The notes under the pieces were generated by a model. That model saw only the letters and a list, made by a program, of their open reading frames with translations. It was not told where the DNA came from and searched no databases. A DNA stretch of 38,113 bases from Ignavibacteria bacterium (GTDB lineage: Bacteria > Bacteroidota > Ignavibacteria > Kapaibacteriales > UBA2268). Made by a program: the position numbers and the translations under genes. Below, one piece after another: positions 3,985-31,763 of the stretch. The DNA lies in assembly GCA_012518115.1 (NCBI GenBank), contig JAAYTD010000055.1, forward strand, positions 1 to 38,113, written 5' to 3'. Numbering within the stretch: the stretch's first letter is position 1; each line of letters begins with the position of its first letter.

Positions 3985-4089
3985 TATTCTGTATTTTTCA
4001 ACATTATATATTTTGAAAATGTTTTTTAGTCAATTTTAGATAAAATTTGGCTGAAAAGCAGATTTTTTTTCATTATTTATAATATTTAT

Positions 4090-27936: not shown

Positions 27937-27996
27937 CAAATTGTTGGGGCGTATTTGATACGCCTCGACAGTTCGCTGAATTTGCTTGTTTTTTTT
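27937..27996 (+). terminator. Terminator region of the transporter gene, containing the third GGGCGTAT-type hairpin
   Basis: The inner hairpin GGCGTAT/ATACGCC (27948-27954 with 27958-27964) is nested in an outer CAAATT/AATTTG pairing (27937-27942 with 27979-27984). T8 follows at 27989-27996. The T-run reaches into the stop codon of the convergent specificity gene. Confidence 0.6.
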
Positions 27997-29413
27997 ACGC
28001 ACTTACACTTTCAATAAACTTTAATGCTTCGTTCTCGTCTTTTTCGATAGCTATTTCTACTGCACGTTTGGCTGTTTCTAAAAGCTGTTCCGATTGGTTT
28101 TTTAGTCGGAAACTTTCATCAACTAGTTCTGCTATTTCTTGTTGTTTAGTATAGTCAACGATAGGTACATATAAATTTCGTATTGTTGGCAAATCAGTGT
28201 TTTGTCGAACACTTGCTTGGGCTATATTCCTATACAAATAATAAGGTTTAGCAATATTTTGAATATAAAGTCCAAGAAAAACGGGATCAAATCCAGAGTT
28301 GTTTTTCAACCGTACCCTGATTGTAAATGAAGCAAACAACCATCCAACTTCATCTCTTACAACTCCTACATCTCCAACTGTACCCATTTGAGAGATAATA
28401 ATATCTCCCTTTTTTGTATAAAACTTTTCAGGTAAATTCTCTGTGTTTATTATTCTATCAAGTTTTTCTGTCGTAATGTTTGTATTTTTCAGATTCATTC
28501 CTTTTATGTAAGGAATACCACTACCATCTTCTGTGTATGGACTTGTTGGCACAGTTCCATAATTGATTAGTTTTGATATTTCTGAAATTAACTTAAAACC
28601 ATTAGACTTTAGCAGTGATTCAACTTCTTCATACTTCTTTTGATAATATTCCGCATCTAATCTTCCCGTTGCCAAAAAAGATTCTTTGAAACTCTTTACA
28701 TTTATTGGGTCGGTGCTTGGCTGAGAGTCTTTTAAACCTAAAGTTTCGAGTAAAAGGGTTTCGGCTTGTTGGTAAAGTTGTTTTGATTTTAATCTACTTT
28801 CATGAGCAGTATCAAAACAATTCTTTATTTCAAGTTGTATTGATTTATTTAAAATAGGAAATAATATTTCTTTTACTTCTTCAGGATTGACATTCGTTTG
28901 ATTAATTGACTGACGAGAACGCCTTTTTATATCATTAACACCATATTTTGTATTCAAAAAAGCAGTAAGGTATTCAGGATTAATAATGCTTTCATCAGGA
29001 ACAAATCTCACCAAGTATGATGCAAAAGTATATTCTTCTTTTTCGACTTGACGATAAAGTCCTGTTCTACCGACCCATTCATAAGAATTAGTTCTATTAA
29101 ATAAAACGTCTCTGTCCTTTAACTTAAATTTTAAAAATTCTTCTCTTGAAATGTCAGCACTTTTATCAACATTCAAATCAGTTAGCATGTTATGAATTTC
29201 ATTCATTCGATAAATAGGATAACCAATATTATCTTCATTCATGGATATAGAAATTCCATATTGAGCTTTTTTTAAAACATTGCCAATTCTTTCATATTTT
29301 AACTTTGGGTTTCTATATGGTTCTTTTGTCCAAAAATCGCTATCTACTCTTAAATCTTTATTTTTAAATGCTTCAGATAATTTAATTTCTGCTATTTCCA
29401 GCCCTTCCAACAA
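27995..29413 (-). CDS. hsdS: Restriction-modification specificity subunit (HsdS-like)
   Basis: Recognises the DNA target for the methylase-nuclease encoded just upstream. The 472-aa product has two target-recognition halves (about residues 40-200 and 265-425), each followed by a helical spacer (SRLKSKQLYQQAETLLLETL; FRLKNQSEQLLETAKRAVE), the normal HsdS plan. It has no good start: the first usable codon is TTG 29413 with no clear ribosome-binding site, and its frame remains open upstream through LNSPFNEEKYKK into the end of the modification gene. It is therefore probably made by frameshifting, is a coupled product, or was split from a single gene. Confidence 0.87.
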   Translation of the reverse strand: MLEGLEIAEIKLSEAFKNKDLRVDSDFWTKEPYRNPKLKYERIGNVLKKAQYGISISMNEDNIGYPIYRMNEIHNMLTDLNVDKSADISREEFLKFKLKDRDVLFNRTNSYEWVGRTGLYRQVEKEEYTFASYLVRFVPDESIINPEYLTAFLNTKYGVNDIKRRSRQSINQTNVNPEEVKEILFPILNKSIQLEIKNCFDTAHESRLKSKQLYQQAETLLLETLGLKDSQPSTDPINVKSFKESFLATGRLDAEYYQKKYEEVESLLKSNGFKLISEISKLINYGTVPTSPYTEDGSGIPYIKGMNLKNTNITTEKLDRIINTENLPEKFYTKKGDIIISQMGTVGDVGVVRDEVGWLFASFTIRVRLKNNSGFDPVFLGLYIQNIAKPYYLYRNIAQASVRQNTDLPTIRNLYVPIVDYTKQQEIAELVDESFRLKNQSEQLLETAKRAVEIAIEKDENEALKFIESVSA

Positions 29414-29445
29414 CTTTTTATATTTTTCTTCATTGAAAGGGCTAT

Positions 29446-31422
29446 TTAAAAAAAACTTAGTCCTTCTTTTTTAGCAAACTCAATAAATGCTTCGGCAATT
29501 CCGTCTTGGGTTAAGCCGTCGTGATTAAAAAGGTCATGCTTTACAATTAGATGTCCGTGATCATCTAATTTATATGTTCCGGCAGAATTTTTTAGAAATA
29601 TTTTGTCGCCGCTGTTATCTTTGCTTGGTTCTTGCATTGTAGCAAAGAAAATAGGGTAATCATCTACTTTCGGACAAAGTTTATCGTCCCATTTTTGAAC
29701 AAATAAAACGCTTGTTTTTGTTCCTGTATGTGGTTTAAACACGTTACCGTGCAAACCAACAACCGCTAAAATACGGCATCTTTCAGCAATAAATTCTCTT
29801 ATTCGTTTATCGCTACTATTATTAAATCGTCCTTGTGGCAAAACAATTGCCATACGACCGCCCGGTTTCAAAAAGTCGAGGTTTCGCTCAATAAATAAAA
29901 TATCTCTGCCAACTTTATTTTGATACTTTCCATTCTCTTTTTTTCCTAATTCATATTTTGCTAAAATACGGCTTTCTTTTATATCTCCGGCAAATGGTGG
30001 GTTTGCCATAAGTACATCAAATTGAAAATCTTGGTTGCTATTATTGTCTTTACGAAGCCTTCTTAGTTTTTTCCAACCTTCAAAATAAACGTCTTGCCAA
30101 TCGTGATCTTCAGTTTTTTCGTCCCAACGTTCCCAATCTAAAGTATTTAGATGAAGTACGTTAGTTTGTCCATCTCCTGCAATTAAATTCAAAGTGCGTC
30201 CAACTCTAACGGCTTTTTCGTCAAAATCTATTGCAAACACTTTTTCCTGCACATAATCAATACAGCGTGCTGGTTTATTTTCGAGTGTAAACAGATGACT
30301 TTTATCTAAACCTTCTTCTTGTATTATCTGTTCCCAAACGTGAAAAATTGTATGAACAGGAAATCCACAACTGCCTGCAGCTGTATCAATCATAGTTTCA
30401 TTTTCTTTTGGGTTTAACATTTTTACAGCCATATCAATTACATAACGAGGTGTAAAATACTGTCCTTTTTCGCCCTTGCTACTCTTATTTATCAGATATT
30501 CAAAAGCTTCATCAACTACATCGAGGTTTGAATTAAAAAGTTTAACGTCCTGAAGCGATGAAACACAAATAGAGAGGTGCGACGGAGTAAGCATTATTTT
30601 TGCATCATCGTTAAAAACCCCTTCCCATTTTTGTTTGGCTTTGTCAAATAGTCCTTGAAGTTTGTTTTTCAGTTCGGTTTCAGTGTCGCCATAGTTTCTA
30701 AATTCTAAATGTCGTGATTTGTTACGCCCGCTTTCCATTTCGTCATATAGTTTTGTGAAAATCAACTTAAATAATTCCTCAAAAACGTCTACTCCGGCGT
30801 TTGCCAGCACTTCATCTTCCATTTCAAGAATCAAGTCTTTTAATGATTTGCGTTCAGTAACTAATTTGTCTTTTTTAATTAGGTCGTCAATTGTCCAACG
30901 TTCTTTTAAAATATCTGAAAGTTTTTGATTAGCTTTTGGAATGCTTGAAATATCTTCAAAATAGTTAGGGTCTTTTCGGTGGTAATAGGAAATGGAATCG
31001 CCATTAGTCCAAATCCCAATCGGAGCTCCTGTTGCGTTACAATATGACTTTAATTGTTCTTTTCCGTCTTTTAGTTTTGGTTTCTTGAGTTCAACTATTA
31101 TAAAAGGTACAGTTGCTTGGTCTTTGTCAAAAATTACGATGTCTGCTCGTTTTACTTCTCTGCCAAAATGCACATTGTACTCTAGCTCCATTCGCTTTTT
31201 TGGATATTTATAATCGTTAAGCAACTTGTCGACATATAATTGTCTTACAACTTCTTCAGGTGTAAGTTTTATTTCTTGATTTCTTATCTGACAAAGAAAA
31301 TAAGGATTATTTCCTTTCTCGTTTGATTTTACAATTATTTTATCTTCTAATACTTTTATTCTAGCTGGGTCAAATTGAGTAAGTTTGTACTCTGAATCTT
31401 TTAGTATTTCTGCTAATGTCAT
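29446..31422 (-). CDS. hsdM: N6-adenine DNA methylase fused to an HsdR-type nuclease domain
   Basis: A 658-aa protein of a type I-like or BcgI-like restriction-modification system. The N-terminal part (about 50-135) matches the HsdR N-terminal PD-(D/E)xK fold: RADIVIF (Asp94) and VELKKPK (Glu111, Lys113). A helical HsdM linker follows, then the methylase core with the SAM motif DTAAGSCGF (about 345) and catalytic NPPF (about 472). No helicase/translocase domain is present, and no separate hsdR lies in the window. The last codons are GLSFF then stop, within a T8 tract (29448-29455). A good promoter lies 48 bases upstream of the ATG. Confidence 0.88.
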   Translation of the reverse strand: MTLAEILKDSEYKLTQFDPARIKVLEDKIIVKSNEKGNNPYFLCQIRNQEIKLTPEEVVRQLYVDKLLNDYKYPKKRMELEYNVHFGREVKRADIVIFDKDQATVPFIIVELKKPKLKDGKEQLKSYCNATGAPIGIWTNGDSISYYHRKDPNYFEDISSIPKANQKLSDILKERWTIDDLIKKDKLVTERKSLKDLILEMEDEVLANAGVDVFEELFKLIFTKLYDEMESGRNKSRHLEFRNYGDTETELKNKLQGLFDKAKQKWEGVFNDDAKIMLTPSHLSICVSSLQDVKLFNSNLDVVDEAFEYLINKSSKGEKGQYFTPRYVIDMAVKMLNPKENETMIDTAAGSCGFPVHTIFHVWEQIIQEEGLDKSHLFTLENKPARCIDYVQEKVFAIDFDEKAVRVGRTLNLIAGDGQTNVLHLNTLDWERWDEKTEDHDWQDVYFEGWKKLRRLRKDNNSNQDFQFDVLMANPPFAGDIKESRILAKYELGKKENGKYQNKVGRDILFIERNLDFLKPGGRMAIVLPQGRFNNSSDKRIREFIAERCRILAVVGLHGNVFKPHTGTKTSVLFVQKWDDKLCPKVDDYPIFFATMQEPSKDNSGDKIFLKNSAGTYKLDDHGHLIVKHDLFNHDGLTQDGIAEAFIEFAKKEGLSFF

Positions 31423-31521: not shown

Positions 31522-31763
31522 ACGGGGTAGTCTATAATTGTCTGAACCGGGATTAACAGGATTAAAGGATTAGCAGGATTGTGCTGTAGGCACAAAATTT
31601 CGGTAAAAGAAATGTAATCTTACTCATCTCGTCCCTTACGGGACGAAACATAAGCAAGTATAAGTTTTTACCGATATTTAATCCCTACGGGATTTATAAG
31701 GATATATAATTAATAACCACGCCTCCCCCGCTTTGCGGGTACTCCTCTACAAGAGGAGAATTA
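31522..31763. repeat. Composite intergenic repeat, copy 2
   Basis: In order: the tail of element D (ACGGGGTAGTCT, 31522-31533), ATAATT (31534-31539), the 166-bp internal unit (31540-31705), ATAATT again (31706-31711), and element C (31716-31763). The internal unit is nearly identical to 2401-2576 except for a 10-base gap and about seven substitutions. It occupies most of the 409-bp gene-free stretch 31423-31831, directly upstream of the restriction-modification promoter. Confidence 0.85.

Follow-up and report, generated by a model that had tools for sequence, protein, structure and literature searches.

How the specificity (S) subunit of a restriction–modification (RM) system comes to be translated is the question raised by two overlapping genes on the minus strand of contig JAAYTD010000055.1 from an Ignavibacteria bacterium (assembly GCA_012518115.1; all 38,113 nt were analyzed and are referred to as the window, which is one contig of a 92-contig draft assembly). 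The upstream gene had been labeled hsdM in an initial annotation made from the DNA alone, but it encodes a nuclease-methylase (HSDR_N_2 and N6_Mtase), here termed RM. It ends with GAA GGA CTA AGT TTT TTT TAA, the eight T described in that annotation being located at 29455-29448 and the stop codon at 29448-29446. The −1 frame opens just 22 nt before this stop, reads from TTA AAT AGC to AAG TTG TTG at the junction (LNSPFNEEKYKKLL), and runs through the S gene down to 27995 without a stop, as had been stated. The lack of a convincing start of S was likewise confirmed, the earliest ATG, GTG, or TTG of the −1 frame being the TTG at 29413. A shift into this frame is predicted to give an RM-S fusion of 1,142 amino acids (658 + 484; about 1,140 had been estimated), whose junction peptide spans SFFLNSPFNEEK. 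We consider it highly probable that RM and S are connected by a signal for programmed −1 ribosomal frameshifting, because this signal is conserved, its stem covaries, and the −1 frame is conserved at the protein level ahead of any start codon. The junction comprises the following elements, in the order of transcription:

29446..31422, minus strand: RM gene, encoding the zero-frame product, a 658-amino-acid nuclease-methyltransferase (HSDR_N_2 plus N6_Mtase/Eco57I)
29461..29465, minus strand: Shine–Dalgarno (SD)-like AAGGA, candidate upstream stimulator, 5 nt before the heptamer (from the sequence and from the enrichment of SD-creating codons in U-type homologues, see below)
29449..29455, minus strand: slippery heptamer U_UUU_UUU in the RM frame (AG U UUU UUU UAA; from the sequence and relatives)
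29446..29448, minus strand: zero-frame stop UAA immediately 3′ of the heptamer (from the sequence)
27995..29449, minus strand: S region in the −1 frame, 484 codons from the TTA at 29449 (from the sequence and Methylase_S)
29430..29444, minus strand: 5′ arm of the predicted frameshift-stimulating stem-loop, 15 bp (from folding and covariation)
29411..29413, minus strand: TTG, likely chosen by annotators as the S start; within the stem and not conserved as a start
29399..29413, minus strand: 3′ arm of the stem-loop, which doubles as the LLEG(L) codons of S in the −1 frame (from folding and covariation)

The homopolymer by itself proves nothing, since T8 runs occur at chance level in the AT-rich window (24 vs. 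35.3 expected from shuffles); the T8 tract was therefore rejected as a rare feature. A scan of GTDB species genomes yielded 330 pattern-matched relatives, including isolates, of which the best 80 (71-82% identity) were analyzed. An in-phase slippery heptamer at the end of RM, followed by a stem-loop and by S in the −1 frame, was present in 74 of these 80 and thus, including the window, in 75 of 81 sequences. Only four kinds of heptamers were observed, namely U_UUU_UUU and U_UUU_UUC (U-type) and G_GGA_AAG and G_GGA_AAA (G-type), all of which are among the shift-prone heptamers measured in Escherichia coli (PMC4066793). The RM stop follows 0, 1, 4, or 7 codons past the heptamer. Elsewhere in the same RM genes, the four heptamers are in phase at only 5 of 46,078 other codon pairs (0.011%), so that their frequency at the junction is far from chance. 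One of the 74 sequences (L068) contains an apparent indel inside RM. The remaining six relatives are three in-frame fusions (L028, L046, L053), a two-gene system (L056), and a pair with T5 (L021, L024). On supported branches of the RM tree, U_UUU_UUY and G_GGA_AAR replace each other at least five times without a change in spacing, stem, or frame; some of these interchanges could stem from junction swapping by recombination.

The stem-loop, which the initial annotation had overlooked together with the SD-like element, starts with GCCC 6 nt past the heptamer (with a variation of at most one base), and this GCCC pairs with a GGGC near the LLEGL codons of S. Across the relatives, the stem comprises 10-20 bp. 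In the window, it has 15 bp and a folding energy of −17.7 kcal/mol (z = −4.65; none of 200 shuffles was equally strong), and in 71 of 75 cases no other 55-nt stretch of the gene pair folds as strongly as the junction. Over 71 sequences, 85.5% of the stem cells are paired compared to 30-60% with a slid partner, and 70 stem cells are doubly changed vs. 32.9 in shuffles (0/500 as high). Pair 11-44, which joins two third-codon positions, is formed in 70 of 70 sequences (permutation mean 58) and occurs as CCT.GAA, CCC.GAG, CCA.GAT, and CCG.AAC, mostly encoding Pro and Glu. Synonymous sites are frozen at the junction only (Ser AGC in 59/59, Gly GGG in 72/72). The 6-nt spacer, the stem of 10-20 bp, and the synonymous covariation point to a stimulatory structure under selection a few nucleotides downstream of the heptamer.

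The best surviving alternative, itself improbable, is a two-gene system, in which a TTG (29413 or 29410) serves as the start of S, independently or via translational coupling, the −1 overlap being coincidental. RefSeq annotates relatives in this way in E. coli E21845/O/A and on a plasmid of Klebsiella pneumoniae INF231 (WP_086812921.1 and WP_086812922.1), which have the same arrangement as the window, and genuine two-gene relatives exist. In two of them (L086, L087), S has an ATG after the RM stop, and in the third (L056), the S start is preceded by a purine-rich stretch; all three are devoid of the heptamer and the hairpin. The codon at the position of 29413 is most commonly TTG as well (56 of 72), but it is TTA in nine, CTG in three, ATG in three, and TTT in one of the sequences, hence no possible ATG, GTG, or TTG start in 13 of 72. 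According to the initial annotation, a consistent two-gene organization of the homologues, with the start near 29413 conserved, would argue against a fusion; this is not what the homologues show. In three of them, the first 60 nt are devoid of any start codon, and 69 of 77 sequences lack an ATG, GTG, or TTG in the −1 frame ahead of the TTG. The hairpin-loop codons upstream of the TTG encode Lys or Arg and Tyr in the −1 frame. The Tyr is kept in 69 of 72 sequences, its codon alternates freely between TAT and TAC, and the third bases of the loop codons are unconstrained in general. Conserved amino acids combined with free third bases indicate selection at the protein level and, therefore, translation of the stretch before the TTG. 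The two-gene explanation also places the TTG within the stem and leaves the in-phase heptamer unexplained. The downstream reading frame thus appears to be translated without being able to start by itself, as is characteristic of frameshifting, and entry from the RM frame would be the simplest route into it.

Transcriptional slippage, in which the RNA polymerase adds or omits a U on the T8 run, is less probable still. Runs of poly-A/T are prone to it, the resulting ambiguity has been discussed (PMC3711429), and T8 is present in 24 of 51 U-type genes; it may therefore contribute in T8 genes such as that of the window. However, it is impossible for GGGAAAG, unlikely for T6-T7, and would select neither a stem at a fixed spacing nor in-phase codons. 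The U-type genes show an additional feature upstream of the heptamer. Their Lys-Glu codons, located about 8 nt upstream, favor AAG GAG, which gives an SD-like element comparable to that of dnaX: the SD-creating GAG is used in 32 of 52 U-type genes compared to 12.2 expected from the same genes. In the G-type genes, the distance to the Lys-Glu codons is longer and the preference for AAG GAG is absent (2 of 23 with GAG).

There is very little to be said for phase variation, in which a T8/T9 tract toggles the fusion by replication slippage. It would be in line with the homopolymer at the junction and with the T5 pair, which has one T fewer than its tree neighbor (L026). On the other hand, the T runs at the junction have a length of 6, 7, or 8 and never of 9 or more, the register differs in just two of about 80 genomes, and a conserved stem and spacer are unnecessary for such switching. 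Moreover, G_GGA_AAR, which contains no repeat, is the heptamer in about one third of the frameshift homologues. This contradicts the former assumption that a single homopolymer base decides between two proteins and one; the two products are probably made side by side. The draft state of the assembly might suggest an error of sequencing, or that one RM-S gene was recently split in a pseudogene-like manner. The probability of this explanation is negligible, and sequence conservation refutes it: complete or isolate genomes from many phyla contain the same break, and where the contig includes the end of S, the latter is intact in 61 of 66 cases. Of the four readings offered initially, programmed −1 frameshifting is thus strongly supported by the comparative evidence, while phase variation, a recent split, and a sequencing error are disfavored.

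Natural relatives with RM and S in one frame serve as controls for the programmed frameshift. Besides the three in-frame fusions mentioned above, such a gene was found on plasmid pAQ6 of Picosynechococcus PCC 7002 (L115, 3001-6540; 1,179 amino acids, WP_012308631.1). As RM and S already share one frame in these four cases, no shift is needed. They show at the sequence level that an RM-S fusion should be a viable product, which is in accordance with the colinear fusion considered in the initial annotation. In the Picosynechococcus gene, from a model cyanobacterium, a weak stem remnant is still scored by the RNA model described below (25 bits).

The arrangement was also detected independently of the first sequence set, both in the E. 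coli and K. pneumoniae relatives annotated as two genes and on contigs of a viral collection. When 395 Bacteroidota genomes were searched with a covariance model of heptamer and stem, 3 gave strong matches, namely that of the window and two more, which were identified solely by this RNA model and share the arrangement. All strong matches were confined to RM-S genes, and a mobile-element origin of the signal was therefore rejected. In its own genome, the window junction is the sole significant match. Weaker matches (E > 0.001) were checked in three sequences (L124-L126), and no RM was found there. A DNA search of 5,426 E. coli genomes revealed a distant copy in three, and the one that was read through shows the same signal. 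The frameshift RM-S signal displays almost all hallmarks of its kind and seems to be old and widespread. A diverged contig of the viral collection (L137, 60% identical) reads AGT TTT TTG AAA TAA (U_UUU_UUG) at about position 4000 with an open −1 frame; no matching hairpin was found in it. The genes for WP_086812921.1 and WP_086812922.1 are located near a toxin gene of the ptaRNA1 family on two E. coli chromosomes (L118, L119) and on the K. pneumoniae plasmid (L116), and both E. coli copies also adjoin a recombinase pseudogene. The toxin and recombinase context on chromosome and plasmid suggests a mobile island.

Several points weigh against a programmed frameshift. The SD-like AAGGA of the window is weak and, at 5 nt, close to the heptamer. 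The T5 pair, from related Bacteroidales metagenome genomes, retains the stem-loop (6060-6131 in L021 and 6057-6128 in L024, at 69 and 64 bits, respectively), but its T5 precedes CG, which places S in the other frame (+1/−2); the system may have been lost, it may be recoded differently, or its off state may be inherited. Part of the sequence set is derived from metagenome bins, and relatedness among the sequences inflates the covariation counts, although it is preserved in the slid-partner control. The last point concerns the likely purpose of the frameshift, an (RM)2S stoichiometry, which is a further, inferred step.

The proteins encoded on both sides of the junction were analyzed by domain searches, alignments, and AlphaFold models. 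A mixed protein alignment of RM and S aligned badly and was left out of the analysis. The following regions were assigned:

30937..31260, minus strand: HSDR_N_2 nuclease domain, amino acids 55-162 of RM (PF13588, E 7.5e-30)
31084..31143, minus strand: D94 ... E111-x-K113, invariant in the aligned relatives (alignments)
29617..30522, minus strand: N6-adenine methyltransferase domain, amino acids 301-602 of RM (PF02384, E 6.9e-32)
29992-30003, minus strand: invariant NPPF, amino acids 474-477 of RM (alignments)
S region: two target-recognition domains (TRDs) split by the long helices CR1 (amino acids 202-236) and CR2 (amino acids 433-469; AlphaFold model)

RM and S very probably form a BcgI/BsaXI-like (Type IIB-like) system, as judged from sequence and predicted fold. 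A nuclease and an N6-adenine methyltransferase are located within one chain (PF13588 and PF02384), with invariant D94, E111, and K113, which we take to be a PD-(D/E)xK-type motif, as well as the invariant NPPF. The S model (predicted local distance difference test score, pLDDT, of 85.7) displays two TRDs and two conserved helices as in Type IIB systems, and its top fold in the PDB is S.BsaXI (8w0p_C). The best solved relative of RM, both by sequence and by fold, is RM.BsaXI (8w0p_A); the RM model is of low confidence (pLDDT 68) and its use was therefore limited to the best PDB matches, without structural details. No candidate for a separate HsdR with translocase, as expected for Type I, adjoins RM-S in the list of open reading frames (ORFs) of the window. 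The neighboring genes, read by eye, encode an aldehyde dehydrogenase and a peptide transporter. A single uninterrupted RM-S frame of the AloI/TstI type is precluded in the window by the UAA at 29446-29448.

Near-identical intergenic repeats are located at 2395-2591 and 31534-31720 (47 nt at 100% and 141 nt at 94% identity). A 25-nt core of these repeats is present in 20 copies across both strands of the genome and in none in a reversed control. This dispersed element is REP-like, and its second copy (31534-31720) lies just upstream of RM. At the contig edge (1-657), three tandem 219-nt repeats with 74-80% identity are part of a long repetitive ORF.

In the proposed mechanism of programmed frameshifting, ribosomes at AGU UUU UUU would stall against the stem-loop, probably aided in U-type genes by the upstream SD-like element. 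A fraction would slip back by one base on the heptamer and read S, giving the 1,142-amino-acid RM-S, and the remaining ribosomes would stop at the UAA, giving the 658-amino-acid RM. Slippage in the cell and its rate are what we infer from the sequence. RM and RM-S might then assemble as (RM)(RM-S), that is, two RM modules per S. A stoichiometry of two RM to one S has been reported for BcgI and BsaXI (PMC3874165, PMC11997821), and the link to it had not been drawn in the initial annotation. An engineered EcoKI M-S fusion cleaved DNA in vitro only with added free M (PMC3510504). We somewhat favor the wider notion of a widespread class of RM systems in which S is made only as a frameshift fusion and the frequency of ribosomal slippage determines how much RM is made per RM-S, forcing (RM)(RM-S) = (RM)2S.

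If true, restriction enzymes would join the few chromosomal, non-transposon functions that use programmed −1 frameshifting, and the signal would offer a possible answer to how a covalent RM-S enzyme that has one RM but two TRDs obtains its second RM module. The junction also allows tests of how the subunit ratio of a restriction enzyme is set. Many "S subunits" starting with TTG are probably misannotated; wherever annotation was visible, two separate genes were given. One enzyme occurs here as two genes, with a frameshift, and as a fused gene; that these three forms are interconvertible has a bearing on how Type I, BcgI-like, and AloI-like systems arise from one another.

The kind of signal itself is textbook knowledge. 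To our knowledge, only a few conserved programmed −1 frameshifts are known in bacteria apart from those of mobile elements, with dnaX as the standard example. In a literature search, to which REBASE did not belong, no earlier report joining ribosomal frameshifting, restriction–modification, and a specificity subunit was found. In the GeneTack survey, seven A-rich heptamers served to select the programmed-frameshift clusters, and no restriction cluster of this kind is named in the main text (PMC3711429). No product was obtained when a frameshift suspected in a C.REase fusion was put to the test (PMC3850674).

With E. coli dnaX (tau/gamma) and the A_AA.A_AA.G signals of the IS3/IS1 families (PMC4066793, PMC5009743), the RM-S junction shares the in-phase X_XXY_YYZ heptamer, the short spacer, the stem-loop, in some cases an upstream SD-like element, and a short and a long product of one gene. 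It differs from them in that the gene is a restriction–modification gene, the heptamer is U_UUU_UUY or G_GGA_AAR, and the long product is the −1 product, which gains a DNA-recognition module of 484 amino acids. The engineered EcoKI M-S fusion (Type IMS, PMC3510504) likewise has S attached, via its N-terminus, to the C-terminus of the methylase, but it is man-made, belongs to Type I with a separate HsdR, and has no recoding signal. BcgI and BsaXI (Type IIB; PMC3874165, PMC11997821) also combine the nuclease and a gamma-type methyltransferase in one chain and have an S with two TRDs. In contrast to the junction described here, where S is apparently made only as an RM-S fusion, they have S as a gene of its own, and RM.BsaXI is longer (916 vs. 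658 amino acids). AloI and TstI (Type IIB single-chain RM-S; PMC3874165, PMC4027205), whose shape the four natural in-frame relatives share, consist of one chain that is colinear with the predicted frameshift product. However, every copy of these enzymes carries S (1:1:1; TstI is a homotetramer), whereas the frameshift arrangement would yield free RM as well, which would supply the second RM module.

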